Assembly (NCBI GenBank): GCA_027485165.1
Contig: JAIXRN010000066.1
Span: forward strand, 1 to 64,000
Source of the DNA: Rubrivivax sp.
Lineage (GTDB): Bacteria > Pseudomonadota > Gammaproteobacteria > Burkholderiales > Burkholderiaceae_C
Reading direction: 5' to 3'
DNA length: 64,000 nucleotides
Both the position numbers and the translations under genes were made by a program. How positions within the stretch are numbered: position 1 is the stretch's first letter; every line of letters begins with the position of its first letter. Below the pieces are notes generated by a model, which made no database searches, was not told the DNA's origin, and saw only the letters and a program-made list of their open reading frames with translations. Shown here piece after piece: positions 7,766 to 24,900 of this stretch.

Positions 7766-8337
7766 TCGGCCGCCTGTCGGGCCTGCTGGTGGCCAAGAAT
7801 CCGCCGCAGCTGCTGGTGGATGTGGGCGGCGTGGGCTATGAAGTCGATGTGCCGATGAGCACCTTCTTCAACCTGGGCGCCATCGGCCAGCCCGTGGTGC
7901 TGCTGACGCACTTCGTGGTGCGTGAGGATGCCCAGGTGCTGTTCGGCTTTCTCACGGCCGAGGAACGCGCCACCTTCCGCGAGCTGGTGAAGATCACCGG
8001 CGTGGGCCCGCGCACGGCGCTGGCCATCCTGTCGGGGCTGAGCGTGGCCGAGTTGGCCCAAGCCGTCAGCCGCCAGGACAGCGCCCGGCTGGTGAAGGTG
8101 CCCGGTATCGGCAAGAAGACCGCCGAACGCCTGTTGCTGGAACTGAAGGGCAAGCTCGGCGCCGACATGGCGCTGCCAGCGGGCCAGCCGGTCAGCGACA
8201 ACCAGGCTGACATCGCCCAGGCCCTGCAGGCGCTGGGCTACAACGACCGCGAAGCCCAGGCCGCGCTGAAGGCCCTGCCGGCCGACGTGGGCGTGAGCGA
8301 CGGCATCAAGCTGGCGCTGAAGGCGCTGAACCGCTGA
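7762..8337 (+). CDS. ruvA: Holliday junction DNA helicase subunit RuvA
   Basis: A 191-residue protein that binds four-way DNA junctions as a tetramer and loads the RuvB motor for branch migration. The N-terminal OB domain starts [12 protein letters not shown]. Two helix-hairpin-helix motifs follow ([13 protein letters not shown] and [16 protein letters not shown]), and a C-terminal helical domain that contacts RuvB ([15 protein letters not shown]). ruvB and ruvC are not in the window. The 3' end overlaps the convergent LemA-like gene by 32 bases. Confidence 0.97.
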
Positions 8338-8902
8338 CCAGGCCCGCCGGGCCGAAACCGTACAGGCGTAACAGCCAGCGCGTGGGCAGTTGAGTGGCCG
8401 CCTGGTTGTAGGCGCTGGCGGCGGTGTCGAACACCCGGCGTGCAAAGGCCAGCTCGACGTCGGCGTCGCGCCAGGCAGACAGCAGGGCGGCCACGGCAGC
8501 GCTGTCGCGCCAGGCCGGCTGCTGGTCCAGCAGCGCACGCACGCGGCTGGCGCGCGCCAGCAGGGCGGCTTCGGCCTGCACCCAGTCGGCGGCGGCCTGG
8601 GTGGCCACCGGCCGGGCGGCCAGCGCAGCCGCTGCGCGCGCCGCCTGAACCAGCGCTGCCTGCAGGGCGTCCAGCGCACCTTCTTCGCCCACCAGGGGTT
8701 CGCGCAGCACGGTCAGCAACGGCGGCAGCACGGCCGCGCGGTGCTTCAGCGCAGCGTCGATCTGCTGCCAGGCCGCGCCGATGTCGTTGCGCAGCGCCAC
8801 CAGCCGGTTGTAGGCCCCAACCATCCAGAACACGATGACGGCTGCAGCGCCCAACACCGCCCACTGGGCGGCCGACACCTCGGGCATTTCAGGCAGATTC
8901 AT
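8306..8902 (-). CDS. LemA family membrane-anchored protein
   Basis: A 198-residue protein with one N-terminal membrane segment ([19 protein letters not shown]) and a long helical extracytoplasmic part. [20 protein letters not shown] and the closing [20 protein letters not shown] are the LemA signatures. The function of the family is unclear. The ATG at 8902 is preferred over a GTG at 8917 that would add five residues. It runs toward ruvA and overlaps its last 32 bases. Confidence 0.88.
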
Positions 8903-8951
8903 GGCCGACGCGGGCACGAACGGGCATCAGAAACCACGGCTGCTGCGGCCT

Positions 8952-10362: not shown

Positions 10363-11619
10363 ATGGCAGAACCCTCCAGCGATTCGGCGCGCGGCTTGCG
10401 CCCGCTGATCGCCGCCCAGTTCAGTTCCGCGCTGGCCGACAACGCCTTGCTCATCGTCAGCATCGCCCTGCTGCAGCAGCAGGGCCGCCCGGGCTGGTGG
10501 GCGCCGCTGCTGAAGTTCAGCTTCATGCTGGCCTATGTGCTGTTGGCGCCCTTCGTCGGCGTGCTGGCCGACAGCGTGGCCAAGGGGCGCTGGATGATGG
10601 CCATGAATGCGCTGAAGGTGCTGGGCCTGGCCGCGCTGATGGCTGGCGTGCATCCGCTGCTGGCCTTGATGTGGGTGGGTGTGGGTGCTGCGGCCTATGC
10701 ACCGGCCAAGTACGGCTTGGTCACCGAACTGGTGCCGCCCCGGCAACTGGTGGCGGCCAATGGCTGGATCGAAGTCACCACGGTGCTGGCCGCCTTGGGC
10801 GGCACCGTGCTGGGCGGGCTGCTGGTGTCGCCCTGGGCGGCGGCGCTGGCGCAGGCCGCCACGCCTGGGGCCCCGCCGCTGACGGGTGCTTTCGCCGCCC
10901 TGCTCGGTCTGTATGCGCTGGCCGCGCTGCTGAACCTGGGCATCCCCGACAGTGGCGCCCGCTATCCCCGCTGCAGCCACCGGCCCTGGGTGCTGGTGCG
11001 GCACTTCGCACAGGCCAACCGCCTGCTCTGGCGCGACGCCGAAGGCGGGCTGTCGATGGCGGTGACGACGCTGTTCTGGGGTGCGGCCGCCGTGCTGCAG
11101 TTCGCCGTGCTGCGCTGGGCAGCCGAACACCTGGGCCTGCCGCTGGATCAGGCGGCTTACTTGCAAGCTGCCGTGGCCGTGGGTGTGGTGGCAGGTGCTG
11201 CGGCGGCTGGCCGCTGGGTCAGCCTGCGTGGCGCCACGCGCACCTTGCCGGCCGGCGTGGCCCTGGGCCTGCTGGTGCCGGTGGCCACCTGGACCAGCGG
11301 CCTGCCGGCTGCCATCGCCTTGCTGCTGGCCGTGGGTGCCCTGGGTGGCGCACTGGTGGTGCCGATGAACGCGCTGCTGCAGCATCGCGGCCATGTCCTG
11401 ATGAGCGCCGGTCGCTCGGTCGCGGTGCAGGGCTACAACGAAAACCTCAGCGTTCTGGTCATGCTGGCCGCCTACGCCGCCTTGCTGTGGGCGGGCTTCG
11501 GGGTCGGCCAGCTGATGGCCTTGCTGGGGGCGCTGGTGGCTGGCGTGATGCTGCTGCTGGTGCAGCAGGGCCGAAGCTTGCGGGCGCTGGGGCCTTCAGG
11601 GCCGCGCGGCCAGGGCTGA
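10363..11619 (+). CDS. lplT: Lysophospholipid transporter LplT-like (MFS)
   Basis: A 418-residue inner-membrane protein with about 12 predicted helices. The N-terminal stretch AAQFSSALADNALLIVSIAL and the loop YAPAKYGLVTELVP are strongly LplT-like. LplT flips lysophospholipids from the outer to the inner leaflet for re-acylation. The usual partner aas (acyltransferase) is not adjacent. It lies beside the lipid cluster at 11596-18605, and its last 24 bases overlap the convergent glycosyltransferase. The ATG at 10363 is chosen because translation upstream crosses the divergent proA start. Confidence 0.87.
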   Translation: MAEPSSDSARGLRPLIAAQFSSALADNALLIVSIALLQQQGRPGWWAPLLKFSFMLAYVLLAPFVGVLADSVAKGRWMMAMNALKVLGLAALMAGVHPLLALMWVGVGAAAYAPAKYGLVTELVPPRQLVAANGWIEVTTVLAALGGTVLGGLLVSPWAAALAQAATPGAPPLTGAFAALLGLYALAALLNLGIPDSGARYPRCSHRPWVLVRHFAQANRLLWRDAEGGLSMAVTTLFWGAAAVLQFAVLRWAAEHLGLPLDQAAYLQAAVAVGVVAGAAAAGRWVSLRGATRTLPAGVALGLLVPVATWTSGLPAAIALLLAVGALGGALVVPMNALLQHRGHVLMSAGRSVAVQGYNENLSVLVMLAAYAALLWAGFGVGQLMALLGALVAGVMLLLVQQGRSLRALGPSGPRGQG

Positions 11620-12852
11620 CCAGCGCGTGCCGGCCGCTGGCGTCTGCACGGCAGCGTGCAGCGCCTGTTCGTACTGCGCCTCGATCAGGCCGACAACGCG
11701 TTCCCAGTCGAGCCGCAGCGCGACTTCACGCGCCGCCAGGCCCATGGCGCGCACCGCGTCGCGCTGGCGCACCAGTTCAGGGGCCAGGCGCAGCAGCGCG
11801 GCGGCATCGTCCATGGGCGCCAGCAGGCCGCTCTGGCCGTGGCGGATCAGCTGGGCGGCAGCGGCATAGTCAAACGCCAGCACCGCCAGGCCGCTGGCCA
11901 TGGCCTCGGGCACGACATTGCCGAAGGTCTCGGTCAGGCTCGGAAACACGAAGGCGTCGGCCGACGCGTAATGCGCCGCCAGATCTTCGCCATGACGCAG
12001 GCCTGCAAACACGGCCTCGGGCAGCTGCTGCTGCAGCGCGGCGCGCGCCGGGCCGTCGCCCACCAGCACCAGCTTCAGCGGCTGGCCGCTGGCGGCCATG
12101 GCACGCCAGGCTGCCACCAGACTGGCCAGGTTCTTTTCGGGCGCCAGCCGGCCCACGCACAGCACGACGGTGGTGTCGGGCCCGACACCCCAATGCGCGC
12201 GCAGCGTTTCGCTGCGCCGGGCCGGACTGAACAAACGGCTGTCGACGCCGCGCGCCACCACTTCCAGACGGCGAAAGCCGGCGTCGGCCAGCTGCTGGCG
12301 CAAGGCCTCGGTCGGCACCATCGTGCAAGCCGTTCGGTTATGAAACCGGCGCAGGTAAGCCATGATCGGCTGGTGCAGCCACGCCGCGCCGTAGTGGCGG
12401 CTGTAGGCGTGGAAGTTGGTGCGGAAGTCGCTGACCACCGGCAGCCCCAGCTTCAGTGCGGCACCCAGGGCAGACCAGCCCAGCGGACCTTCGGTCACCA
12501 GGTGCACCAGGTCGGGCCGGCGCCGCGTCCACAGGGCCAGCAGCGCACGCTTGCTGGGCATGCCCATCTTCAGCTGCGGGTAGCGCGGGATGGGCAGGCC
12601 CCGCATCAACACTTCGGTGTGCCACTGGCCACCCGGGGCTGCGGCCCAGCCCGCGTCGACAGCATCCTGCCGCGGGCGCACCAGCTGCACTTCGTGCTGG
12701 CGCTGGCGCAAGCCGTCAACGACCCGGGCGATGGTCGCGGCGACCCCGTTGACTTCGGGCGGAAAGGTCTCCGTCACCACCGCCACGCGCAGCGAACGCC
12801 GCTGCGGCAGGTAGTCGTCGACACGCAGGCCCGCGAGCGGCTCAACTTCCAT
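11596..12852 (-). CDS. GT4-family glycosyltransferase, Agt-like (probable diacylglycerol glycosyltransferase)
   Basis: A 418-residue two-domain GT-B glycosyltransferase. The N-terminal domain opens with VAVVTETFPPEVNGVAATIA, as in MgtA-type enzymes. The C-terminal nucleotide-sugar domain has VGRLAPEKNL, LVGDGPARAAL and the E-x7-E segment FPSLTETFGNVVPEAMASG. In other bacteria a GT4 enzyme of this kind (Agt) glycosylates diacylglycerol released by PlcP under phosphate limitation. A PlcP-type gene lies 5 kb away at 17667. PHO-box-like repeats pointing toward this gene lie 23-51 bases upstream (12875-12903). ATG 12852 is preceded by AGGGG at unusually short spacing. The acceptor assignment is inferred. 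Confidence 0.75.
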   Translation of the reverse strand: MEVEPLAGLRVDDYLPQRRSLRVAVVTETFPPEVNGVAATIARVVDGLRQRQHEVQLVRPRQDAVDAGWAAAPGGQWHTEVLMRGLPIPRYPQLKMGMPSKRALLALWTRRRPDLVHLVTEGPLGWSALGAALKLGLPVVSDFRTNFHAYSRHYGAAWLHQPIMAYLRRFHNRTACTMVPTEALRQQLADAGFRRLEVVARGVDSRLFSPARRSETLRAHWGVGPDTTVVLCVGRLAPEKNLASLVAAWRAMAASGQPLKLVLVGDGPARAALQQQLPEAVFAGLRHGEDLAAHYASADAFVFPSLTETFGNVVPEAMASGLAVLAFDYAAAAQLIRHGQSGLLAPMDDAAALLRLAPELVRQRDAVRAMGLAAREVALRLDWERVVGLIEAQYEQALHAAVQTPAAGTRWSALAARP

Positions 12853-12874
12853 ACCCCTACTGTGCGTGCGGTGC

Positions 12875-12903
12875 GCAACAGCGGCGTGACAGGCACATGA
12901 CGC
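12875..12903 (-). promoter_or_regulatory. Candidate PHO box array reading toward the GT4 gene
   Basis: On the minus strand three 7-mers are spaced by exactly four bases (11-bp period): GCGTCAT (12897-12903), CTGTCAC (12886-12892) and CTGTTGC (12875-12881). The PhoB consensus is CTGTCAT direct repeats at 11 bp. The array ends 22 bases before the ATG at 12852. Confidence 0.6.
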
Positions 12904-12944
12904 GGGCGTGGCGGACTCCGTGTCGGCCGGATGTCGGCCCAGTG

Positions 12945-13008
12945 TCGTCACGGCGCTTTCACGCCCTGTTCATGCCGGCTTCATCGCCGGCCGTCACCAT
13001 GCTTTCAC
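12945..13008 (+). promoter_or_regulatory. Candidate PHO box array reading toward the membrane-protein gene
   Basis: Six 7-mers carrying TCA lie on the plus strand at 12945 (TCGTCAC), 12956 (CTTTCAC), 12967 (TGTTCAT), 12978 (GCTTCAT), 12991 (CCGTCAC) and 13002 (CTTTCAC). Spacing is 11, 11, 11, 13 and 11 bases, the geometry of PhoB direct repeats. The array ends 46 bases before the TTG start at 13055. No clear -10 hexamer is visible downstream. Confidence 0.65.
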
Positions 13009-13054
13009 ATGGGCCGCCGCGCTGGCGCGCTCAGCCCTTCAAGGAGCCCGCCCT

Positions 13055-13696
13055 TTGAACATCCAGACCCGCCAGACCTTCCTGCAGGCCCTGCGCACCC
13101 AGCGCTGGGACGACCACCGCTACTACCACCACTGCCGCATCAACCAGAGCCTGCACCTGGTCAGCGCCCTGAGCTTTCTCTGCGCGTACGCCTTGCTGTT
13201 CATCGAACCCGCGGCCGCGGCCTGGCTGGCCTGGGGCGTGTCGATGACGACGCGCCAGGCCGGGCACTTCTTCTTCGAACCGAAGGGCTACGACAGCGTC
13301 AACCAGGCCACGCACGCATACAAAGAAGAGATCAAGGTTGGCTACAACATCCAGCGCAAGATCGTGCTGATGGTGATCTGGGCCGCCGCACCGCTGGCGC
13401 TGTGGCTGGCACCGTCGCTGGGCGGGCTGATCGCGCCGGCCACCGGCTTCACGGGCTGGTGGCACGACGTGGGCATGGCCTGGCTGGCGCTGGGTGTGGC
13501 GGGCCTGCTGTTCCGCACCGGCCAGCTGTTCCTCATCGCCGATGTGCAGACCGGGCTGGTGTGGGCCACCAAGATCATCACCGACCCGTTCCACGACGTC
13601 ATGCTGTACTGGCGCGCGCCGCTGCACCTGCTGCGCGGCGAGCGCCTGGACCCGATGCGCCACGTGCTGTCGCACGGCGAACAGGCGCCGCGCTGA
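13055..13696 (+). CDS. Histidine-rich integral membrane protein, unknown function
   Basis: A 213-residue protein with four or five hydrophobic segments. It carries clustered histidines at membrane edges: DDHRYYHHCRINQSLHL near the N-terminus, RQAGHFFFEP and THAYKEEIKVGYNIQ in the middle. Such spacing recalls DUF962/Mpo1 or fatty-acid-hydroxylase-like metal sites, but I cannot assign it firmly. The start is a TTG at 13055 with a strong AAGGAG eight bases upstream; translation from further up would run through the regulatory repeats. It begins the plus-strand arm of the lipid cluster, so a role in lipid modification is plausible. Confidence 0.7.
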   Translation: MNIQTRQTFLQALRTQRWDDHRYYHHCRINQSLHLVSALSFLCAYALLFIEPAAAAWLAWGVSMTTRQAGHFFFEPKGYDSVNQATHAYKEEIKVGYNIQRKIVLMVIWAAAPLALWLAPSLGGLIAPATGFTGWWHDVGMAWLALGVAGLLFRTGQLFLIADVQTGLVWATKIITDPFHDVMLYWRAPLHLLRGERLDPMRHVLSHGEQAPR

Positions 13697-13704
13697 AAGG
13701 CGCT

Positions 13705-15351
13705 TCAGCGATGCGCCAGCATCTCGCGCAGGATGCTGCGACGGATGCTCTTGTTGCTGAGCCCTTCGCCCTGCCACCACCAGCCGTCGGCCTGCATCGC
13801 GCAGGCCGCCGCCACGAAGCGCTGCACCACCGCGGCGAAGTCTTCGTCGCTGTAGTTCAGGCTGAAGACCATGCGCCCGGTGCCCACCCAGCTGAGCGCC
13901 AGGCCCTGTTCGCGCAGGTAGAACTGCAGCATCCAGTTGTAGCGGCTGGGGGCGGTGTAGTAGACCGTCCAGATGCTCGACAAGTTGGCCACCTGCACCG
14001 GCACGCCCGCGGCCTGCAGCGCGGCGTTCATCTGCGCGGCGCGGGCGTTCCAGGTCTCGTCCAGCCCCGCGTACATGCGGCGCACCGGTTCGCTGTGCAG
14101 GCGCTCCAGGAACACCTGCATCGCCCCCATCACGTAAGGGTGGGCGTTGAAGGTGCCGCGGGCAAAGCAGATGTCGGCCGGGCGCTCTTCGCGGTAGCGC
14201 TTCATCAGCGCAGCGCGGCCGCACACCACGCCCACCGGCAGCCCGCCGCCCAGCGTCTTGCCGTACGTGACCATGTCGGCCTTGACGCCGAAATATTCCT
14301 GCGCGCCACCGGGCGCCAGGCGGAAGCCGACGAAGACCTCGTCGAAGATCAGCACGATGCCGCGCGCGGTGCAGACATCGCGCAGCTGCTGCAGCCAGGC
14401 GGTGTAGGCCGCCCGGTCGAATGCCGCGCGGCGGCCGCTGTCCAGCAGGGCCGAATCGCCGGGCGCAGACTTGTTCGGGTGCAGGGCCTGCAGCGGGTTC
14501 ACCAGCACGCAGGCGATGTCCCGGCGCGTCTTCAGCACGCGCAGGGTGTCGGCGTCCATTTCCTTCAGCGTGTAGGTGCGGCCAGGCGGCAGCGGGTTGC
14601 CGGGGCCGGGCTGCACGTCTTCCCACCAGCCGTGGTACGCACCACTGAAGCGCACCAGGTACTTGCGGCGCGTGTGATAGCGCGCCAGGCGCACGGCCTG
14701 CATCACGGCTTCGGTGCCGCTCATGTGGAAGCTGACCTCGTCCAGGCCGCTGATGCGCTTGAGCTGTTCCACGTTCCAGGCCACGGCCGGGTGGTAGCTG
14801 CCCAGCACCGGGCCCAGGTCGCGGGCGCGCGCCGCGCCTTCTTCGATGCAGGCCTTGTAGAAGTCGTTGCCGAACACGTTCACGCCGTAGCTGCCGGTCA
14901 GGTCGTAGAACACCTGGCCGTCCATGTCGGTCATCGTCACGCCGTCGGTGCGCTGCACGAAGCTGCCGATCTTCAGGTGCTGGCGCAGGTAGGCGCTGTA
15001 CTGGAAGGGCACGCGGTACGCGCCGGTGAACTGCAGGTCGCTGATGCCGCCGCGGGCCTGCGCCGTGAGCTCGATGCTGCGGGCATGCCGGTCGCCCAGC
15101 TGCGCAGCCAGGCGGCCAAAGCCCTGTCGCCGGCGCTGCAGCACGTCGGCCGGGGCGCCGTCGCTGCCGAAGAAGCGCTGCTCGTCGTAGCTGTAGCCCG
15201 GCACCAGCGACGCCACGCGCTTGGCCATGCGCGAATGGCCCGTCAGCGACGGGTGCTTGGCCAGCGACAGTTCCAGCCGGCGCTTGGCCGCCGGCAGCGC
15301 CGCCGCCACGGCGGCCAGTGCGATGGCGGAAAAAGCAAAAGTCTCGTTCAT
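13705..15351 (-). CDS. Class III aminotransferase, glutamate-semialdehyde-aminomutase-like
   Basis: A 548-residue PLP enzyme of fold type I. HMSGTEAVMQAVRLAR binds the cofactor phosphate, VLIFDEVFVGFRLAPGG holds the PLP-contacting Asp, and VTYGKTLGGGLPVGV holds the Schiff-base Lys. It is about 120 residues longer than HemL; the extra N-terminal part starts with a hydrophobic stretch (FAFSAIALAAVAAALP) that may anchor it to the membrane. It lies inside the lipid cluster, divergent from the decarboxylase gene with 64 bases between starts. The amine substrate is unknown; an aminolipid head-group or precursor is a reasonable inference. It is unlikely to be the housekeeping HemL because of length and context. 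Confidence 0.8.
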   Translation of the reverse strand: MNETFAFSAIALAAVAAALPAAKRRLELSLAKHPSLTGHSRMAKRVASLVPGYSYDEQRFFGSDGAPADVLQRRRQGFGRLAAQLGDRHARSIELTAQARGGISDLQFTGAYRVPFQYSAYLRQHLKIGSFVQRTDGVTMTDMDGQVFYDLTGSYGVNVFGNDFYKACIEEGAARARDLGPVLGSYHPAVAWNVEQLKRISGLDEVSFHMSGTEAVMQAVRLARYHTRRKYLVRFSGAYHGWWEDVQPGPGNPLPPGRTYTLKEMDADTLRVLKTRRDIACVLVNPLQALHPNKSAPGDSALLDSGRRAAFDRAAYTAWLQQLRDVCTARGIVLIFDEVFVGFRLAPGGAQEYFGVKADMVTYGKTLGGGLPVGVVCGRAALMKRYREERPADICFARGTFNAHPYVMGAMQVFLERLHSEPVRRMYAGLDETWNARAAQMNAALQAAGVPVQVANLSSIWTVYYTAPSRYNWMLQFYLREQGLALSWVGTGRMVFSLNYSDEDFAAVVQRFVAAACAMQADGWWWQGEGLSNKSIRRSILREMLAHR

Positions 15352-15415
15352 GCAGCGACACCTGTGAATGTGACGCTGCGGTTGTATGTCCTGGCCTTGA
15401 CGGTGTGATGACCTG

Positions 15416-16369
15416 ATGAAGAACCCTCTACAACACCTGCCCCTGAACGCCCCGGCAGGCGGCTGGCTGCGGCATTGGCGCGACAAGCTGCTACTGCAGG
15501 AAGACCTGAACTTCCTGCTCACCAACCGCATCCCGCGCGCCGCGCTGACACGCTTCATGGGCCGCTTCAGCCAGGTGCGACAGCCCTGGGTGCGCGACGC
15601 GTCCATCGCCGTCTGGAAGCTGTTCACCGACCTGGACCTGAGCGAAGCCAGCAAGACCCGCTTCGACAGCCTGCACGACTGCTTCACGCGCGAACTGAAG
15701 CCTGGCGCCCGGCAGGTAGACCTGCGGGCCGACGTGCTGACCAGCCCGAGCGACGGCATCGTGGGCGAATGCGGGCGCGTGCGCAACGGCCAGCTGTTCC
15801 AGGCCAAGGGCTTCCCGTACCGCATCGAAGACCTGTTCGGCAGCATCGACGCCGCCCGGCCGTGGCGCAACGGCAGCTACGTCACGCTGCGCCTGACATC
15901 GGCCATGTACCACCGCTTCCACGCACCGCACGACGGGCGCATCGAGCATGTCCGCTACCTGGCCGGCGACACCTGGAACGTGAATCCGATTGCGCTCAAG
16001 CGCGTGGAACGCCTGTTCTGCCGCAATGAACGCGCGGTGCTGCACATGCGGCTGGACGGCGGCGCGCCCGTGGCCCTGGTGCCGGTGGCGGCCATCCTGG
16101 TGGCCAGCATCCGTCTGCACTGCCTGAACCTGTTGCTGCACCTGAAGTACCCCGGTCCGAACGAGCTGCCCTGCAGCGCCACTGTCACCAAGGGCCAGGA
16201 ACTGGGCTGGTTCGAACATGGCAGCACCATCATCGTGTTCGCCCCGCCGGGCTTCACGCTGGCGCCGGGCATCGCCACCGGCGCACGCGTGCGCATGGGC
16301 CAGGCCCTGATGCACCTGCCCGCGGCAGCCCCCGCCGGCGGGACCAGGCTACGAACTGCCGCGCCATGA
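15416..16369 (+). CDS. Phosphatidylserine decarboxylase-like proenzyme
   Basis: A 317-residue protein of the Psd family, which forms phosphatidylethanolamine by pyruvoyl-dependent decarboxylation at the membrane. Self-cleavage normally occurs before Ser in LGST; here the segment reads FEHGSTIIVF, so Gly-Ser-Thr is kept but Leu is His. Other family marks are LTSPSDGIVGECG, SAMYHRFHAPHDGRI and VNPIALK. It starts the three-gene run psd-GT28-plcP and its stop overlaps the GT28 start (ATGA). It may be a second, specialised decarboxylase rather than the housekeeping one. Confidence 0.85.
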   Translation: MKNPLQHLPLNAPAGGWLRHWRDKLLLQEDLNFLLTNRIPRAALTRFMGRFSQVRQPWVRDASIAVWKLFTDLDLSEASKTRFDSLHDCFTRELKPGARQVDLRADVLTSPSDGIVGECGRVRNGQLFQAKGFPYRIEDLFGSIDAARPWRNGSYVTLRLTSAMYHRFHAPHDGRIEHVRYLAGDTWNVNPIALKRVERLFCRNERAVLHMRLDGGAPVALVPVAAILVASIRLHCLNLLLHLKYPGPNELPCSATVTKGQELGWFEHGSTIIVFAPPGFTLAPGIATGARVRMGQALMHLPAAAPAGGTRLRTAAP

Positions 16370-17577
16370 AGACGCAGCCGCTGGTCGAACTGGTGTATTT
16401 CAACGCTGGCGGCGGCCACCGCGCGGCGGGGCTGGCGCTGCAGCAGGGTATTGCGCTGCAGCACCGGCCCTGGCAGCTGCGGCTGACGAACCTGACCGAA
16501 GTGCTGGACCCGCAGGGCCTGTTCCAGCGCCTGACGGGCCTGCAGCCCGAAGACCTGTACAACAAGCGCCTGACCAGCGGCTTCACGCTGGGCCTGGCGC
16601 AGGAACTGAAGCTGCTGCAGGGCGGCATCCGCCTGCTGCAGGGCAGCCTGGTGCAGCGCCTGCAGGCGCACTGGGCAGCCAGCCGCCCGGACCTGGTGGT
16701 GTCGCTGATCCCCAACTTCAACCGCGTGCTGTGCCAGAGCCTGAACCTGGCGTGGCCCGGCGTGCCCTTCGTCACCGTGATGACGGACCTGGCCGACCAC
16801 CCGCCGCACTTCTGGGCCGAACCCGGCCTGCCGCAGCAGCTGGTGTGCGGCACCGCGCACGCCGTGCAGCAGGCCCTGGCCGCCGGCCTGCCGGCCAGCC
16901 AGGTGCACCGGGTCAGCGGCATGCTGCTGCGCCCGGCCTTCCACGCCGCCCCCGCTGTCGACCGGCGCCGGGCCCGCCTGGCTGCGGGCCTGCCGGCCGA
17001 CGAACCCACGGGCCTGGTGCTGTTTGGCGGCCACGGCAGCCGCGCCATGCTGCCGCTGGCCGAACGCCTGGCTGACGTACCGCTGGTGCTGCTGTGCGGG
17101 CGCAACGCCGCGCTGGCCCGGGCGCTGCGGGCGCAGCCGGCCCGCGCCCCGCGCGTGGTGCTGGAATTCACGCCCGACGTTGCGCCATGGATGCACCTGG
17201 CCGACTTCTTCATCGGCAAGCCCGGGCCGGGGTCGATCAGCGAAGCGGTGCAGATGGGACTGCCCGTGATCACCACGCGCAACGCCTGGACGCTGCCGCA
17301 GGAGCGCTGGAACACCGACTGGGTGCAGGAGCACGGCCTGGGCGTGGTGCACCGCAGCCTGCGCACGGTGCGCGCCGCCGTGGCCGACGTGCTGCAGCAG
17401 CTGCCGGCGCTGCAAGCCCGGGTGCGCCAGCAGCACAACCGCGCCTTGTTCGAAGTGCCAGAGCTGCTGTCGCGCTGGCTGCCGCCGGCAGCCGATCCCG
17501 CGCGCGCCGCAGCCGCAGGCGCCAACACGGCCGCGCCGGCGCCGCGGGTGCCAGTGCTGTTGACGCCATCGCCCTGA
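16366..17577 (+). CDS. GT28-type diacylglycerol glycosyltransferase (MGDG-synthase-like)
   Basis: A 403-residue GT-B enzyme. VYFNAGGGHRAAGLAL at the N-terminus is the glycine-rich acceptor-side loop of MurG/MGDG-synthase relatives. PDLVVSLIPNFNRVLC, VTVMTDLADHPPHFW and DFFIGKPGPGSISEAVQMGLP complete the signature of the family. Relatives transfer glucose or galactose to diacylglycerol. The last 40 residues are Ala/Pro-rich and probably disordered. It is translationally coupled to the upstream Psd-like gene and lies 89 bases before plcP, whose product could supply diacylglycerol. Sugar donor not predictable. Confidence 0.82.
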   Translation: MKTQPLVELVYFNAGGGHRAAGLALQQGIALQHRPWQLRLTNLTEVLDPQGLFQRLTGLQPEDLYNKRLTSGFTLGLAQELKLLQGGIRLLQGSLVQRLQAHWAASRPDLVVSLIPNFNRVLCQSLNLAWPGVPFVTVMTDLADHPPHFWAEPGLPQQLVCGTAHAVQQALAAGLPASQVHRVSGMLLRPAFHAAPAVDRRRARLAAGLPADEPTGLVLFGGHGSRAMLPLAERLADVPLVLLCGRNAALARALRAQPARAPRVVLEFTPDVAPWMHLADFFIGKPGPGSISEAVQMGLPVITTRNAWTLPQERWNTDWVQEHGLGVVHRSLRTVRAAVADVLQQLPALQARVRQQHNRALFEVPELLSRWLPPAADPARAAAAGANTAAPAPRVPVLLTPSP

Positions 17578-17601
17578 AGCCATCGTCCAGGCGCCATCGG
17601 T

Positions 17602-17641
17602 CTGCCATGGCCTTGACGCGCTGCTGTCACGCCCCCGTCGC
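17602..17641 (+). promoter_or_regulatory. Candidate PHO box array upstream of plcP
   Basis: Four 7-mers in 11-bp phase precede plcP: CTGCCAT (17602), TTGACGC (17613), CTGTCAC (17624) and CCGTCGC (17635). The first and third match CTGTCAT at six of seven positions; the other two are weak. The array ends 25 bases before the ATG. Confidence 0.4.
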
Positions 17642-17666
17642 AGCCGCGCTGCAAGATGCGTGACGC

Positions 17667-18605
17667 ATGTTGCGCGAAGCCCTGGGCACCCCCGCCCCGC
17701 CAAGAACCCCTGCCGCCTGGGCGACAGCGGTCGCCCCGACGCCCGGTGACGCACCTGGCTCCACCGACGAGGCTGGCGCAGACGACAACGGCGAAGGCAA
17801 GCTGCACCTGCGTACGGTCTGGATTTCCGACCTGCACCTGGGTACGCCGGGCTGCCAGGCCGTCGCGCTGCTGGACTTCCTGCGCACGGTGGAATGCGAC
17901 ACGCTGTTCCTGGTGGGCGACATCATCGACGGCTGGCAGCTGCGGCGGCAGTGGTACTGGCCGCAGGCGCACAACGACGTGGTGCAGAAGCTGCTGCGCA
18001 AGGCGCGCAAGGGCACGCGGGTGATCTTCATCCCCGGCAACCACGATGAATTCGCGCGCAAGTACCTGGACCACAACTTCGGCGGCATCGACGTGGCCGA
18101 CGAATGGGTTCACACCCTGGCCGACGGCCGCCGGCTCTGGGTGACGCATGGCGACCTGTTCGATGGCGTCATCCAGTGCGCGAAGTGGCTGGCCTACGTC
18201 GGCGACTGGGCCTATGAACTGACCCTGCGCGTGAACAGCCGGCTGAACGCCTGGCGCGCCAGGCTGGGGCTGCCGTACTGGAGCCTGTCGCGCTACCTGA
18301 AGCTGAAGGTCAAGCGCGCCGTCAGCTACGTCAGTGATTTTGAGGAAGCCGTGGCCCGCGAAGCCCGGCAGCGGGGCCTGCAGGGTGTGGTCTGCGGCCA
18401 CATCCACCATGCAGAAATGCGCACGATCGGCGAAGTTTTGTATTGCAACGATGGCGACTGGGTCGAAAGCCTGACGGCCTTGGTAGAACACCGGTCGGGC
18501 CAGCTGGAAATACTGGACTGGACCCACCGGCGGCTGTCGGGCCGGCCTGCGCGGCAGGCCGAAACCGACGCCGTTAACAACCCGACACCCATTTCCGTTT
18601 CCTGA
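17667..18605 (+). CDS. plcP: PlcP-type phospholipase C / LpxH-like metallophosphoesterase
   Basis: A 312-residue calcineurin-fold protein. The metal-binding motifs are ISDLHLG (near 53), VGDIIDGW (near 86), PGNHDEF (near 121), THGDLFD and CGHIHHAE. The surrounding text, WYWPQAHNDVVQKLLRKARK and LYCNDGDWVESLTALVEH, fits PlcP of lipid-remodelling bacteria better than LpxH, which usually is shorter. PlcP hydrolyses phosphatidylcholine/ethanolamine to diacylglycerol under phosphate starvation, which a glycosyltransferase then caps. Two glycosyltransferases are in this cluster and a PHO-like array precedes the gene. Residues 1-45 are poorly conserved and probably disordered. The alternative is a plain LpxH-like phosphatase. 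Confidence 0.75.
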   Translation: MLREALGTPAPPRTPAAWATAVAPTPGDAPGSTDEAGADDNGEGKLHLRTVWISDLHLGTPGCQAVALLDFLRTVECDTLFLVGDIIDGWQLRRQWYWPQAHNDVVQKLLRKARKGTRVIFIPGNHDEFARKYLDHNFGGIDVADEWVHTLADGRRLWVTHGDLFDGVIQCAKWLAYVGDWAYELTLRVNSRLNAWRARLGLPYWSLSRYLKLKVKRAVSYVSDFEEAVAREARQRGLQGVVCGHIHHAEMRTIGEVLYCNDGDWVESLTALVEHRSGQLEILDWTHRRLSGRPARQAETDAVNNPTPISVS

Positions 18606-18725
18606 GACTTATTCACTCGGTGCAGCGGGCTCAAGTTCGCGCACCGGCAGACCGAAAACCGGTTGTGAACCCGGGCAGCCCCCACAGGCTTGCCCTGGCC
18701 CCCCGCACAGCCAGCCCGGTCCGCC

Positions 18726-19184
18726 ATGAACAAAAGTCTTTGCGCACGCCGCCCTGCCGGCTTCACGCTTATCGAAGTGATGATCGCGGTCGCGATCGTC
18801 GGCATCCTGGCCGCCATCGGCTATCCCAGCTACCGCGACTACATCGTGCGCGGCAACCTGGTCGACGCCACGAACGGCCTGGCCACGATGCGGGCGCAGA
18901 TGGAGCGCCACTTCCTGGACAACCGCACCTACGCCACGGCCGGTACGTTCATCACGCCCTGCGCCAGCACCGACGCCAACACCCGCACCTTCGGCCGTTT
19001 CGTCGTCAGCTGCGTGGGTACGCCCACCGCCACCACCTTCACGCTGCAGGCCGTGGGCAGCGGAAACGTCAGCGCCTTCACGTACACCATCAACCAAAAC
19101 GACGTGCGCGCCACGACGGCGGCAGAAAGCGGCTACGGCACCTGCGCCACAAGCTGGATCCTGAAGCGGGGGCAGACGTGCTGA
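18726..19184 (+). CDS. pilE: Type IV pilin-like protein (PilE/minor pilin)
   Basis: A 152-residue class IVa prepilin. The leader MNKSLCARRPAG is followed by FTLIEVMIAVAIVGIL, with Glu at mature position 5, the PilD cleavage and methylation site. The C-terminal part has a Cys pair (GTCATSW and QTC) that could form the D-region disulfide. It precedes fimT, pilV, pilW, pilX and pilY1, so it is more likely a minor pilin of the PilE group than the main subunit. ATG 18726 gives a proper leader length; an in-frame ATG 36 bases up would give a much longer one. Confidence 0.85.
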   Translation: MNKSLCARRPAGFTLIEVMIAVAIVGILAAIGYPSYRDYIVRGNLVDATNGLATMRAQMERHFLDNRTYATAGTFITPCASTDANTRTFGRFVVSCVGTPTATTFTLQAVGSGNVSAFTYTINQNDVRATTAAESGYGTCATSWILKRGQTC

Positions 19185-19768
19185 AGACCCGCTGGCGGGC
19201 ATCGGTCGGGCACCGCGGCTTTTCGCTGGTCGAGCTGATGGTGACCATCAGCCTGCTGGGGCTGCTGCTGGGCCTGGCTGCGCCGGCCTTCAGCACCTGG
19301 ACGCGCAACGCCCAGGTGCGCAGCGTCAGTGACGCGCTGCAGTCGGGCCTGCGGTTTGCGCAGTCCGAAGCCGTGCGCCGCAACCGGCAGGTGGTTTTCT
19401 TCCGCACCAGCAGCAAGCTCTGCGACGACAGCATCGTCAGCAACGCCACCGGCATCTACTGGGCCATGCGCACCGTGCCGCTGGTGGCCGGCGATGCCGT
19501 CGAAACCCTGCAGTGCGGGGCGCTGACCGAAGCCACGGGCAACGTCAGCATCACCGGCCCGCGCCTGCTGTGTTTCAACTCGGCCGGGCGGCTGACGGCC
19601 AACGCCAACCCTGGCGTTGGCAACCAGCCCTGCGCCGTGCCCACGGGCGGCGTGGGCACCTACGTGGTCAGCAACACGGGCGCCGACCGCAGCCTGAACG
19701 TCACCGTCGCCCTGGGTGGCCAGGTGCGCATGTGCCTCGTCGGCGGCGCCGGGCCGGACGGGTGCTGA
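19178..19768 (+). CDS. fimT: Minor pseudopilin, GspH/FimT type
   Basis: A 196-residue prepilin-like protein with short leader and GFSLVELMVTISLLGLLLGL as the hydrophobic helix. AFSTWTRNAQVRS and LRFAQSEAVRRNRQV after the helix are typical of FimT/GspH. The start is GTG at 19178, overlapping the previous stop by seven bases. FimT-type pilins help initiate pilus assembly and, in some species, bind DNA. Four Cys residues lie in the C-terminal half. Confidence 0.85.
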   Translation: MLKTRWRASVGHRGFSLVELMVTISLLGLLLGLAAPAFSTWTRNAQVRSVSDALQSGLRFAQSEAVRRNRQVVFFRTSSKLCDDSIVSNATGIYWAMRTVPLVAGDAVETLQCGALTEATGNVSITGPRLLCFNSAGRLTANANPGVGNQPCAVPTGGVGTYVVSNTGADRSLNVTVALGGQVRMCLVGGAGPDGC

Positions 19769-19770
19769 AC

Positions 19771-20166
19771 ATGAAGACCCCTCGTCTGCAGCGGCTCCGC
19801 CGCGGTATTTCGCTCATCGAAGTGATGGTGGTGCTGGTGCTGTTCTCATTCGGCCTGCTGGGCCTGGTGGGGCTGCAGGCCAAGGCGCTGCAGGTGTCGG
19901 TGAACGCCGAAGACAGCACGCGGGCGGCCCTGCTGGCCAGCGAACTGGCCACCGCGATGTGGACCAACAACACCGCCAACCTGCCGGCCGCCGCCATCAC
20001 GGCGTGGCAGACCCGCGTGGCCAATGCCACAGCCGCCGGCCTGCCCGGCGGCACCGGCGCCGTGGCCGTGACGGGCAACGTGGCGCGCATCACCATCACC
20101 TGGGTGCCCACGGGCACGCCCGCCGGCACCGAGAACCGTTACATCACCGAGGTGTTGATCCCATGA
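19771..20166 (+). CDS. pilV: Minor pilin PilV
   Basis: A 131-residue prepilin with leader RLRRG and ISLIEVMVVLVLFSFGLLGL, including Glu5. LVGLQAKALQVSVNAEDSTRA following the helix is typical of PilV. It is short for the family, ending with a compact beta region. It starts two bases after the fimT stop and overlaps pilW by four bases. Confidence 0.85.
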   Translation: MKTPRLQRLRRGISLIEVMVVLVLFSFGLLGLVGLQAKALQVSVNAEDSTRAALLASELATAMWTNNTANLPAAAITAWQTRVANATAAGLPGGTGAVAVTGNVARITITWVPTGTPAGTENRYITEVLIP

Positions 20167-21338
20167 CGCACTGGCCTGCCCGGCCGCGGCGCGGCTTCAC
20201 CTTGATCGAGCTGATGGTGGCGGTGGCCATCGCGCTGGTGCTGACGCTGGCCATCACCCTGATGCTGGTGCGCAGCGAAAGCGGGCGCCGCACGCTCACT
20301 TCCACCAACGACAGCAGCAACAACGGCGCTTACCTCAGCTATGTGCTGGACCGCACGCTGCGCAGCGCCGGTTCGGGCTTTGCGCAGGGCTGGCGCAACG
20401 CCTACGGCTGCGCGCTGCAGGCCCAGCGTGCCACGCTGGGCACCTTCCTGCCGCGCGCCAGCGCCTACCCCGCGCCTTTTGCCAGCGTGCCGCTGACGAT
20501 GCGCATGGCCCCGCTGGTGGTGCAGGCCGGCACGGGCAACGGCGGGTCGGACGTGCTGATCGTGCAGACCGGCTCTTCGGGCCTGGGCGAAGCCCCGCTG
20601 CCGGTGCTGACGAATTCGGCCAGCAGCGGCACGGCCAGCCTGCGCGTGCCCATCACCCTGGGTCTGCGCGGCGGCGACCTGGTGGCCCTGGTGCAGGAAA
20701 CGAACACCGGCACCGGGCCCCTGCCCTGCGTGCTGCAGCAGGTGGAAGCCGGCTTCGTGGGCAACACCGATGTGCTGGAACTGGGCGGCAACTTCTACGC
20801 CGCCAGCGTGGGCGGCATCGCGCTGGACGACATCGGCAGCGCCCGGCGTGCCTGGGTGGTGCCACTGGGCAACGAAGCCGGCAGCCGGCCCGGCTTCCAG
20901 CTGCTGGGCGTGGCCGCCAACAACACCCTGGTCAGCTACGACCTGCTGCGCCTGGACGCCAGCAACACCGTGGTGCCGGTGGCCGACGGCGTGGTCGACC
21001 TGCGTGCGCGCTACGGCGTGGACACCGACGACGACGGCCGCATCGACGACTGGGTGAGCCCTGCCGATGCCGACTGGACGGCCGCCACGCTGATGAACGG
21101 CAGCGAAGCCGCCGCAACGGCGCTGAGCCGCATCATCGCCGTGCGGGTGGCCCTCGTGCTGCGCAACAACAGCCCGGAACGCACCGACATCTCACCCGCT
21201 AGCCTGACGCTGTTTGCCGACCTGCCGGCGGCCCAGCAGGCCACGCACAGCATCGCCGCAGGCGACCGCAGCCTGCGTTACCGCACGCTGGACTTCACGG
21301 TGCCGCTGCGTAACGCGCTGCTCACCCAACGCCCATGA
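20163..21338 (+). CDS. pilW: Minor pilin PilW
   Basis: A 391-residue prepilin with leader PRRG and FTLIELMVAVAIALVLTLAI. PilW is the large minor pilin of the priming complex with PilV, PilX and PilY1. Near residue 287 the sequence DTDDDGRIDDW (bases 21021-21053) looks like an EF-hand-type calcium loop in a variable domain. The GC-rich body is otherwise low in recognisable motifs. ATGA overlap with pilV. Confidence 0.87.
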   Translation: MTHWPARPRRGFTLIELMVAVAIALVLTLAITLMLVRSESGRRTLTSTNDSSNNGAYLSYVLDRTLRSAGSGFAQGWRNAYGCALQAQRATLGTFLPRASAYPAPFASVPLTMRMAPLVVQAGTGNGGSDVLIVQTGSSGLGEAPLPVLTNSASSGTASLRVPITLGLRGGDLVALVQETNTGTGPLPCVLQQVEAGFVGNTDVLELGGNFYAASVGGIALDDIGSARRAWVVPLGNEAGSRPGFQLLGVAANNTLVSYDLLRLDASNTVVPVADGVVDLRARYGVDTDDDGRIDDWVSPADADWTAATLMNGSEAAATALSRIIAVRVALVLRNNSPERTDISPASLTLFADLPAAQQATHSIAAGDRSLRYRTLDFTVPLRNALLTQRP

Positions 21339-21345
21339 AGCGCCC

Positions 21346-21972
21346 ATGAAACGCCTGTCATCCCCGGGCCGCCAACGCGGCGTGGTCATCCTGTTCGGGC
21401 TGATCGCGATGCTCATCATGCTCATCGGCGCCGTCGCCATGGTGCGGTCGATGAACTCCAGCCTGGCCAACAGCGGCAACCTGGGCTTCAAGCGCGACCT
21501 GACGAACCAGGGCGAACGCGCCCTGGCCGAGGTGCTGGCACAGATGCAGGGCGGCAGCCTGGGCAGCGAAGCGCTGCGCCAGTCGCACAACCAGGCGCTG
21601 AACTACCGCGCCAGCCAGTACAGCGGCGCCGACGTCACGGCCCAGGGCCTGCCCCTGGCCCTGGTCAGCGACACCGCCTTCGCCACCGCCGGCACCGCCG
21701 CGCGCGACATCGCGGTGGCCGACATGGGCATCAGCGTGCGCTACGTGGTGGAACGCCTGTGCCGCAGTGACGGCCCGGCCGACCCCGCCCAATGCACGAT
21801 GGCCGACAGCGAGGTGTCCAGCGCCGTCAACGGCAGCGACCCCGTGACGGCTGAATTCGGATCGTCCGGCGGCGCCGGCGCCGCGCCGCAGCTGGTGGTG
21901 TACCGGCTGTCGGTGCGCGTCACCGGTCCGCGCCAGACCCAAGCTTTCTTCCAGACCACGTTCACGCTGTAA
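21346..21972 (+). CDS. pilX: Minor pilin PilX
   Basis: A 208-residue protein. After a short basic leader (RQRG) comes VVILFGLIAMLIMLIGAVAM, the single membrane helix expected for PilX, which lacks the usual Glu5. The C-terminal half includes a Cys pair region. It lies between pilW and pilY1, the conserved place. The ATG at 21346 is chosen; an out-of-frame mini-ORF ATG at 21335 overlaps the pilW stop. Confidence 0.85.
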   Translation: MKRLSSPGRQRGVVILFGLIAMLIMLIGAVAMVRSMNSSLANSGNLGFKRDLTNQGERALAEVLAQMQGGSLGSEALRQSHNQALNYRASQYSGADVTAQGLPLALVSDTAFATAGTAARDIAVADMGISVRYVVERLCRSDGPADPAQCTMADSEVSSAVNGSDPVTAEFGSSGGAGAAPQLVVYRLSVRVTGPRQTQAFFQTTFTL

Positions 21973-21992
21973 ACGCCACCGGAGCTTCTGCC

Positions 21993-24900
21993 ATGGCCAC
22001 CACGACCATCACCAACGCCTTCCTGCGCCGCGGGGCGCCAGCGCTGCTGCTGGCCCTGGCCAGCCTGTGCCCGCTGGGCGCCAGCGCACAGACCGCACTG
22101 GCCGACCAGCCGGTGTTTTCCAACACGGCCGTGCCGGGCAACCTGGCCCTGGCGCTGAGCGTGGAATTCCCCACCGCTGTCAGCGTGGCCCACATCGACA
22201 GCGGCTACGACAGCGGCAAGCCTTACCTGGGGTATTTCGACCCCGAGAAGTGCTACACCTATGTCTACGTCGCGACCGAGAACCTCGCCACCGGCAACGT
22301 GCGCCACTTCGCGCCCAGCGGCGCCGCCATCGCGCGTGGCTGCACCGGCGGGCAGGCCGGCAAGTGGAGCGGCAACTTCCTGAACTGGGCGACGATGCAG
22401 ACCATCGACCCCTTCCGCTGGGCGCTGACGGGCGGCCTGCGGGTGGTCGACACCAGCAACACCACCATCCTGGAAAAAGCCTGGGCCAGCGGCCAGGGCG
22501 GCACCGGCAACTTCCCGAACCGGTCGCTGGGCACCAGCGCGCTGGTGTCTGCCAACACGCCGTTCGGCTGGGGCAGCATGGCCATGCGCGTGCAGGGCCT
22601 GGGCAACAAGCTGCGCTTCACTGCCATCACCACGGCCGGTGCGGTGGACGGCGCCCCGTCGGACTACACCGGCGGGGCCGTGAACACCACCACGCTGTAC
22701 GAAGTGACGGTACGCGTAAAGGTCTGCGACAGCACCAGCGGCGCCGGCCCGCTGGAAGGCAACTGCACGCTCTACAGCTCGGGCAACTACAAGCCCACCG
22801 GGCTGCTGCAGCAGTATGCCGACCGCATCCGCTACAGCGCCTTCGGCTACCTGAACGACAGCAACATCCGGCGCGACGGCGGCGTGCTGCGCGCGAAGCA
22901 GAAGTTCATCGGCCCGCTGAAGAACGACGAACCCACCCTGCCCCCGGCCACCAACACTGCGCGCGAATGGGACCCGTCCACCGGCATTCTGGAGCCCAAC
23001 CCCGACGCCACCGACGCCAGCGCCACGGCCGCCCTGTTCGGCACGCCAGTGGGCAACAGCGGTGTCATCAACTACCTGAACAAGTTCGGTCAGATCAACC
23101 CCGGCAACTACAAGACTTTCGACCCGGTGGGCGAGCTGTACTACGCCGCCATCCGCTACTTCAAGAACCTGGGCAACGTGCCGGAATGGACAGCGAAGTC
23201 CGGCGACACCGACACCAACCGTATCTGGGTCGATGGCTTCCCCGTCATCACCAGCTGGGACGACCCCCTCCAGCACAGCTGCCAGAAGAACTTCGTGCTG
23301 GGCATTGGCGACGTCAACAGCCACGCCGACAAGAACGTGCCAGGCCCCACGGGCACGGCCAACGAATCGACCAAGCCCGCAGCGGTGATCGCCGACACCA
23401 CCGTCGACGCCGTGGCCGCCACCAACAAGCTGGGCCAGCTGCACGGCCTGGGCAACAGCGCCGGCACGGCCGAGAACTGGGGTGGCTGCTGCAACAACAA
23501 CTCGGCGCTGATGGCCGGCGTCGCCTTCGACGCCAATGGCAAGGACATCCGGCCCGACAACGTCGCGGTGCCGAAGACCGCCGGCAAGCAGACCGTGCAG
23601 ACCTACTGGCTGGACATCCTGGAATACCAGACCTACAAGGCCAACAACCAGTTCTACCTGGCCGCCAAGTACGGCGGTGCCAAGCTGCCCGAGAACTTCA
23701 ACCCGTACACGCGCACGGCCGACCTGCCCAAGCCCTGGTGGTCCACCACCGGGGAACTGGTGGGCAGCCAGGACCGGCCCGACACCTACTTCACCGCTGC
23801 GCGCCCGGACCAGCTGGTGGCCGGCCTGACGCGCGCGTTTGCCGACATCGCGGCCCAGCTGAGCGCCTTCAGCACCTCGTTTTCTACTGCGCTGCCGCAG
23901 GTGGCGCAGTCGGGCGCGGACACCTATGCCGCCAAGTACGACGCCGGCAACTGGACGGGCGAAGTGACCGGCAGCACGAGCACCTTCGACCCCGGAACCG
24001 GCGCGCCCACCCAGGTGACGGCCTGGAACTTCAGCACCAAACTGGCCGCGCAGCTGGCCGGCACGGGCTGGGACACCGGCCGCCGCGTGGTGACCTGGAA
24101 CACTGGCACCAACGCCGCCGTGCCCTTCCGCAGCACCGGCATTTCGGCGGCGCAGCTGGGCACGCTGGACACCGCCTACCGCAGCGGCAACGACAGCACC
24201 GACTACCTGAACTACCTGCGCGGCGACGCCACGCACGAAGAGGGCTCCAGCGCTTCCAACAGCACCAAGGCTTATCGCACCCGTACTGGGCCGGTGGGCG
24301 ACATTGTCGGGTCCAAGCCGCGCGTCGTGGTTCGGCCAGTGGCACCGTATTCGTCAGCCACCAATGCCGGCTATGCGGCTTTCCGCACCACCTGGAAGGA
24401 CCGGGCGACGATGGTCTACGTGGGCAGCAATGCCGGCATGCTGCATGCCATCAACGGGTCTGTCACCACCACCGACGGCGGCAATGAAGTCTTTGCCTAC
24501 GTGCCCGGCGCGCTGTACCAGGGCGCCAACGGCACACCGGCACAGACCGGCCTGCAGCACCGCGGCAACCCGAACTTCACGCACCGCAACCTGGTCGACG
24601 GCCCGATCAACGTCTTCGACATCGACATGGGCAAGACCCAGGGCGGCAGCGGCACGCCGACCTGGCGTTCGGTACTGGTGGGCGGCCTGGGCAAGGGCGG
24701 CAAGGCCTACTACGCCATCGACGTGACCGACCCCGCCGCCTTCACCAGCGAGAGCGCCGCCGCCGGCAAGGTGCTGTGGGAGTTCACCCACACCGACCTG
24801 GGCTTCACCTACGGCGAACCGGCTGCAGTGAAGACGAAGAAGTACGGCTGGGTGCTGATCTTCGGCAGCGGCCACAACAACAGCGACGGCAAGGGCTACT

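Follow-up and report, generated by a model that had tools for sequence, protein, structure and literature searches.

A cluster of lipid-related genes is described here from a 64,000-nucleotide stretch of DNA (hereafter the window) of Rubrivivax sp., a member of the Burkholderiales (assembly GCA_027485165.1, contig JAIXRN010000066.1, positions 1 to 64,000 of the forward strand). Six contiguous genes lie at positions 11596-18605 with an lplT gene adjoining, just as the initial annotation had stated, and three of the six, which encode a histidine-rich membrane protein (HisTM), a class III aminotransferase dependent on pyridoxal phosphate (PLP) and here called AT3, and a decarboxylase-like pyruvoyl enzyme (Psd2), form a trio that recurs in other Pseudomonadota. 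The features of the locus are as follows.

10363..11619, plus strand: LplT-like lysophospholipid transporter, a neighbouring gene (NF008397, 476 bits, cut-off 297; reading frame open from 10231)
11596..12852, minus strand: GT4, an Agt-like glycosyltransferase, its substrate probably diacylglycerol (GT4 and GT1 Pfam domains above cut-off; reading frame open to 12951)
12886..12903, minus strand: Pho-box-like site (11 of 14 consensus positions) between the divergent GT4 and HisTM genes
12956..12988, plus strand: three TTCAC/TTCAT repeats with a period of 11 base pairs (bp), possibly a second PhoB site (found by eye)
13055..13696, plus strand: HisTM, histidine-rich membrane protein, distantly Mpo1-like (TTG start; reading frame open from 12908)
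13705..15351, minus strand: AT3, class III PLP aminotransferase carrying a hydrophobic anchor at its N-terminus (PF00202, 113 bits, cut-off 30.5)
15397..15414, minus strand: Pho-box-like site (10 of 14 consensus positions) between the divergent AT3 and Psd2 genes
15416..16369, plus strand: Psd2, phosphatidylserine-decarboxylase-like pyruvoyl enzyme with an HGST motif (TIGR00163, 152.4 bits, cut-off 111.75)
16366..17577, plus strand: GT28, glycosyltransferase resembling monogalactosyldiacylglycerol synthase (weak matches, below cut-offs)
17667..18605, plus strand: PlcP-type phospholipase C, a calcineurin-like phosphoesterase (Pfam domain above cut-off; conserved part from 17802)

GT4 and HisTM are divergently oriented, HisTM and AT3 converge with 8 bp between them, and AT3 and Psd2 diverge again; the Psd2 and GT28 genes overlap by 4 bp, and PlcP comes next on the same strand.

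The notion that all six genes form a conserved unit did not survive comparison with other genomes, and it is well supported that the conserved unit is the trio of HisTM, AT3 and Psd2. With AT3 as bait, 95 loci were collected besides that of the window's own genome, drawn from the genomes of the same family that carry AT3, from the best 80 of 581 matches in named genomes and from one Sphingomonas plasmid; 65 of these loci are flanked on each side by over 6 kb of sequence. When the partners were searched for in those 65 (tblastn, E 1e-10), Psd2 and HisTM were found in every stretch, GT4 in 61, LplT in 34, PlcP in 27 and GT28 in 13, and within 6 kb of AT3 the counts were 65 for HisTM, 65 for Psd2, 60 for GT4 and 23 for PlcP. 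HisTM, used as an independent bait, was found in 25 of 398 sampled Pseudomonadota genomes, and all three trio genes were present in 18 of the 20 stretches fetched by that route (19 genomes), the two exceptions being a contig end and a second copy without close partners. An AT3 profile run on the same 398 genomes gave 26 matches, one of them inside a frame of 2,611 amino acids and with a far lower score; without it, the 25 AT3 genomes and the 25 HisTM genomes have 24 in common. Because AT3 has both HisTM and Psd2 within 6 kb in all 65 loci and 24 genomes are common to HisTM and AT3, the adjacency of the trio exceeds chance. The order and orientation of the three genes vary across betaproteobacteria, alphaproteobacteria and one gamma-like genome, yet the trio is kept.

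Of 60 genomes sampled from the same family, 15, the window's own included, have an AT3 match of more than 60 % identity, and among the matches listed the closest relative is in a Burkholderiales metagenome bin (91 %), followed by Rubrivivax and other betaproteobacteria (about 80 %). The named trio loci come from betaproteobacteria, along with a few oddly labelled bins and one Sphingomonas, and the trio is present in named Polynucleobacter records as well as in a 1.9-Mb genome of the same order. Among the sampled families, f45 is sphingomonad-like (ClpB 81 % identical to that of Sphingomonas, a rough placement), f39, whose GT4 is of the fused type described below, belongs to another class than the window genome and has its nearest GyrB relatives among the alphaproteobacteria of a plasmid collection (59 %), and weak evidence suggests that f48 is Bradyrhizobium-like; genome G425 shares its GTDB class with the window, its RecG being nearest to Aeromonas (66 %, again a rough placement). 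Eight Bradyrhizobium plasmids carry HisTM, and both of the two that were opened carry it alone, as orphan copies of about 55 % identity (L145:12001-12555 and L146:10001-10555) with neither AT3 nor Psd2 nearby.

HisTM had been left unexplained when its gene was first noted. Although the protein has no Pfam match at 1e-3, profile-profile alignment with the Mpo1-like family (hhalign) gave a probability of 90 and an E value of 1.7e-6, with none of 60 column shuffles as good, and two relatives from family f39 (in genomes G072 and G155) score above the PF06127 cut-off at 27.1 and 26.9 bits. HisTM shares with the Mpo1-like 2-hydroxy fatty acid dioxygenases (PF06127) a conserved pattern of His, His and GH..FE; it differs from them in its length of about 210 amino acids with a long extra C-terminal part, and the window copy lies below the family cut-off. 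By this profile match, HisTM is a distant Mpo1-like protein. It is also part of the conserved core. Mpo1 acts on 2-hydroxy fatty acids, and the Pfam family name agrees.

AT3 resembles the class III aminotransferases, including the mycosubtilin synthase domain and glutamate-1-semialdehyde aminomutase, in its family score, its SGTEA motif and its PLP lysine (Lys365, within GKTLGGG), which is invariant in 16 of 16 sequences; unlike them, it is free-standing and apparently membrane-anchored, with a hydrophobic N-terminus in 91 of 101 readable orthologues. Among solved structures, AT3 is most like the aminotransferase domain of mycosubtilin synthase (216 bits; the runner-up molecule scores 165), and some of its distant matches are very long frames (1,547 to 5,032 amino acids). 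An identity as glutamate-1-semialdehyde aminomutase (HemL) was rejected, the equivalog model scoring 173 of the 527 bits needed.

Psd2 was correctly noted at the outset to carry a histidine in its LGST motif: the window copy reads HGST, as do 99 of 100 orthologues (the other reads QGST), and the genome's other, ordinary Psd has LGST. The enzyme matches the Escherichia coli-type phosphatidylserine (PS) decarboxylases (TIGR00163; PDB 6L06 and 7CNW) in family score, in its GST cleavage site and, with residue numbers counted from the histidine pair, in keeping Asp90 and the histidines of YHRFH that align with E. coli His144 and His147, residues whose roles are given in excerpts of PMC7952604. It departs from them in the His before GST, in a Met for Asp142, in an Arg for Tyr137 and in being a second copy beside the LGST enzyme. 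According to the same excerpts (PMC7952604), Asp142 is a member of the self-cleavage triad in the E. coli enzyme, and Arg in place of Tyr137 occurs in 15 % of known PS decarboxylases.

The phosphoesterase at 17667-18605 had been taken for PlcP rather than LpxH, and that assignment is upheld. It is 53.4 % identical to a Sinorhizobium meliloti homologue and 54.4 % to one from Pseudomonas aeruginosa, the range widening to 53-57 % when a Sphingomonas homologue is included, whereas it shares 26.9 % identity over 119 columns with the LpxH-like protein of its own genome. LpxH models give it 43 of 134 and 34.8 of 190 bits, and LpxH was rejected as its identity; the separate LpxH-like gene elsewhere in the genome scores 181 bits with TIGR01854 as against 35 for the window enzyme, both being below the 190-bit cut-off. 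The S. meliloti homologue sits near an acyl-homoserine-lactone synthase gene and a LuxR gene, which we take to be the site of SMc00171 (PlcP), and the P. aeruginosa homologue overlaps a glycosyltransferase gene near a cyclase gene, presumably the arrangement PA3219-PA3218-PA3217. PA3219 is named PlcP and PA3218 Agt1 in excerpts of PMC8528852. On these comparisons, the identification of the phosphoesterase as PlcP is well supported. Of the two diacylglycerol glycosyltransferases that had been proposed, GT4 holds up, since it is 35.2 % identical to P. aeruginosa Agt1 (372 columns, E 5e-48) and is an Agt-like enzyme that probably acts on diacylglycerol, but GT28 falls below every family cut-off (Pfam scores of 21.9 against 25 and 21.0 against 22, NCBIfam 59.7 against 500). 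A gene resembling uridine diphosphate (UDP)-glucose dehydrogenase, one member of which was scored, lies near 13 of the 95 loci and adjoins HisTM in locus L160; such a neighbour would fit a uronic-acid glycolipid made by GT4.

Several observations were made beside these genes. On a Mitsuaria plasmid (L226:5917-8983), a PlcP-like gene is directly upstream of polyphosphate kinase 1, and a P. aeruginosa plasmid (L228, NZ_CP137508.1 24879-30583) carries a PlcP-Agt1-like pair within a stretch that, by its gene order, looks like a segment transplanted from the chromosome. In the window itself, PlcP is followed on the same strand (18690-25805) by genes whose translations look like a type IV pilin, minor pilins and a large PilY1-like protein, and a LemA-family protein (PF04011, 47.6 bits) is encoded on the minus strand at 8306-8917.

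The trio and PlcP tend to occur in the same genomes. Within the sampled family, PlcP is present in 15 of 15 trio genomes versus 27 of 45 others (Fisher p 0.0026, uncorrected for relatedness), and 12 of 15 further genomes with both AT3 and HisTM have it too. The three without PlcP (G425, G072 and G183) have a different GT4 between AT3 and Psd2, one with a long N-terminal fusion in frames of 985, 896 and 901 amino acids, and the fusion is found in all six such loci that have a complete frame (L157-L160, L162 and L163; 892-985 amino acids). By eye, the N-terminal region of about 540 amino acids in these proteins (L157:11408-14284 and L160:2344-5025, also L158, L159, L162 and L163) has PHP-like histidine motifs; the pieces of it that were searched gave no Pfam or PDB match to a PHP-type phosphoesterase domain. 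If the region is a phosphoesterase, it would take the place of PlcP. A gene of family PF13444, presumably of the OlsB type, was seen by eye within about 1 kb of PlcP in 14 of 27 family genomes with PlcP and no trio, versus 3 of 15 trio genomes (an example is G002:C4:84765-86290). The idea that ornithine lipids and the trio exclude each other was dropped, as PF13444 is present in 64 of 75 genomes, with or without the trio, and so does not separate them.

A further partner appears in the alpha-type loci. In 10 of 115 loci (L023, L149-L152, L154-L156, L165 and L166), all of alpha type with an unfused GT4 or none, a gene for a PmtA-like N-methyltransferase lies directly upstream of HisTM, its reading frame overlapping that of HisTM in L156, and none was detected in the beta or fused-GT4 loci of the same 115 (tblastn, E 1e-15). 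The NCBIfam PmtA model is the best one for the proteins of L023, L149, L154 and L156, but at 132-151 bits it stays far under the cut-off of 390. Bradyrhizobium PmtX3 and PmtX4, which may be other genes than those found here, methylate phosphatidylethanolamine (PE) in E. coli (excerpts of PMC8590670).

Control by PhoB, as initially proposed, was approached by scoring the consensus CTGTCATNNNNCTGTCAT, which comes from excerpts of PMC8528852 and has 14 consensus positions, in the divergent intergenic regions. The best match averaged 10.92 of 14 in the 85 GT4/HisTM regions of beta loci, versus 8.85 in dinucleotide shuffles (p <0.05 in 49 of 85), and 10.11 versus 8.65 in 104 AT3/Psd2 regions (p <0.05 in 29 of 104), the regions in each set being related in sequence, so that the draws are not independent. 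Matches of at least 11 of 14 were found in 64.6 % of 82 GT4/HisTM regions versus 2.7 % of random windows from the same loci, and in 27.8 % of 97 AT3/Psd2 regions versus 2.1 %, a comparison that leaves out loci shorter than 8 kb. For the window's own sites, that at 12886..12903 has p 0.016 by dinucleotide shuffles and 0.015 by random windows, and that at 15397..15414 has 0.066 and 0.045. The AT3/Psd2 regions of the alpha-type loci L149, L150, L165, L166 and L023 score 12 or 13 of 14. The proposal is supported by Pho-box-like sites at both divergent promoters and by their enrichment in beta loci; the six fused-GT4 loci that were scored showed no such signal upstream of AT3. Judged from sequence, the locus is a candidate for control by PhoB, which would bind at such sites.

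The gene identities, the conserved trio, the co-occurrence with PlcP and the Pho-box enrichment of beta loci were all computed here, and together they liken the locus to the PlcP-Agt remodelling systems of Phaeobacter, Pelagibacter, P. aeruginosa and Methylosinus, which exchange phospholipids for glycolipids during phosphate starvation (excerpts of PMC4796936, PMC8528852 and PMC9239053); with these it shares a PlcP orthologue, an Agt-like GT4, Pho-box-like sites and, in some relatives, the nearby UDP-glucose-dehydrogenase-like gene. PlcP, GT4 and the Pho boxes are accounted for by that scheme. The locus is unlike those systems in adding HisTM, AT3 and Psd2, in having a GT4 with only 35 % identity to Agt1 and in that PlcP often lies elsewhere in the genome; no description of the trio, in the PlcP-Agt scheme or otherwise, turned up in searches of the open PMC subset. 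The PhoB-regulated glycosyltransferases Sgt1 and Sgt2 of Caulobacter, which make uronic-acid lipids, offer another likeness, but they act on ceramide (excerpts of PMC6445935). A search of the window genome for serine palmitoyltransferase and ceramide synthase, run without a positive control, gave no match that would point to a sphingolipid setting; the idea had come from the Sphingomonas locus, in which a serine palmitoyltransferase gene lies about 10 kb from the trio. The aminolipids known from the phosphate response are made by acylating amino acids (excerpts of PMC11631085).

The reading that we prefer, and to which we give an about even chance of being right, is that this is a PhoB-controlled PlcP/Agt remodelling locus joined to an undescribed module in which HisTM oxidises, AT3 aminates and Psd2 decarboxylates a lipid head group. 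PlcP would cut phospholipids to diacylglycerol, which GT4, and perhaps GT28 also, would turn into a glycolipid. In the adjoining module, whose steps would follow a chemical order, HisTM would use iron and O2 to oxidise the hydroxylated head group of a lipid, AT3 would convert the resulting keto acid or aldehyde to an amino group, and Psd2 would decarboxylate the amino-acid stage to an ethanolamine-like amine, which the adjacent PmtA-like enzyme may methylate further in alphaproteobacterial relatives with an unfused GT4. At low phosphate, the cell would in this way obtain a zwitterionic or cationic lipid. What we infer from these genes is the binding of PhoB, every substrate, the sequence in which the enzymes act and HisTM's part as an oxygenase. 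Extra steps leading to an unusual amino- or glycolipid head group had been suggested from the start; the aminotransferase and the HGST decarboxylase are indeed there, and such a head group may be their product.

A number of results weigh against this reading. The window copy of HisTM scores 15.8 bits with PF06127, below the cut-off of 24, and its structural model (predicted local distance difference test score of 86) drew 37 matches among solved folds, none with E <1e-3. The mycosubtilin synthase domain that is closest to AT3 acts on beta-keto acyl chains and is not known to act on head groups, and the Met that Psd2 has for the catalytic Asp142 is invariant in 16 of 16 sequences. The physical link between PlcP and the trio is loose, since just 23 of 65 loci have PlcP within 6 kb of AT3 and the two are on separate replicons in Sphingomonas. 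As for regulation, the window's own Pho-box-like sites are moderate matches (11 and 10 of 14), with p values of 0.08 upstream of PlcP and 0.17 upstream of lplT. None of the six fused-GT4 loci reaches p <0.05 upstream of AT3, the sphingomonad-like AT3/Psd2 regions (L154-L156) score only 8 or 9 of 14, and only two of nine other alpha-type regions have p <0.05, both upstream of the methyltransferase (in L154 and L023).

Some of the same evidence could be turned towards the acyl chain, in that AT3 would aminate a beta-keto acyl intermediate to give a beta-amino fatty acid. This acid would enter a phosphorus-free lipid, and Psd2 would act in another step. The kinship of AT3 with the mycosubtilin synthase domain and with very long frames points that way, as do the 2-hydroxy fatty acid substrates of Mpo1. 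However, no ketosynthase or thioesterase family was seen by eye beside the trio in neighbour clusters of at least four loci (clusters with a 90-amino-acid limit, which acyl carrier proteins would escape; one cluster, in 4 loci, resembles an acyl-CoA ligase), Psd2 scores fully as a PS decarboxylase, and the additional partner in the alpha-type loci looks like a head-group N-methyltransferase. We consider this explanation unlikely. To the same degree we doubt that the module serves PS and PE turnover, with Psd2 making PE, AT3 removing or exchanging the amine, HisTM oxidising the rest and diacylglycerol passing to GT4. Such a role would suit a Psd2 that scores above the PS-decarboxylase cut-off and retains His144, His147 and Asp90, in a module tied to the phospholipid-consuming PlcP pathway; but PlcP, present in all 15 sampled trio genomes of the family, already yields diacylglycerol, an ordinary Psd is also in the genome, and having a methyltransferase next to HisTM is more in keeping with synthesis than with breakdown.

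Slightly less probable again is a boost of ordinary PE or phosphatidylcholine (PC) synthesis under phosphate stress, provided by Psd2, the PmtA-like enzyme and their partners, with AT3 and HisTM as auxiliaries. The TIGR00163 score of Psd2 allows for it, its Arg at Tyr137 is shared with a fraction of known PS decarboxylases (excerpts of PMC7952604), and PmtX3 and PmtX4 do methylate PE (excerpts of PMC8590670), whereas the near-perfect co-occurrence of AT3 and HisTM, the near-invariant HGST motif and the lack of a methyltransferase in the beta loci favour a dedicated pathway. That unrelated lipid genes merely came together by chance is very improbable and, for the trio, is contradicted by its persistence despite rearranged order and orientation; many loci lack GT28 or PlcP, and the Sphingomonas trio and PlcP-glycosyltransferase pair are on different replicons, and for GT28 and lplT such chance may still apply.

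Returning to the head-group module, we put forward a broader proposal more tentatively, as a possibility that we would not call probable. The trio may represent an unrecognized pathway of oxidation, transamination and decarboxylation that would start from a glycolipid or some other hydroxylated lipid and, in phosphate-starved cells, yield a replacement for PE or PC that bears an amine and possibly lacks phosphorus; it would be shared by Burkholderiales, Rhodocyclales, Bradyrhizobium-like and sphingomonad-like alphaproteobacteria, and a small number of further lineages. The phosphorus requirement of a bacterium is set by its lipid remodelling, and an amine head group made by other chemistry would, if true, account for some of the response to phosphate seen in freshwater and soil bacteria. 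The trio also gives three uncharacterized protein groups one testable role.

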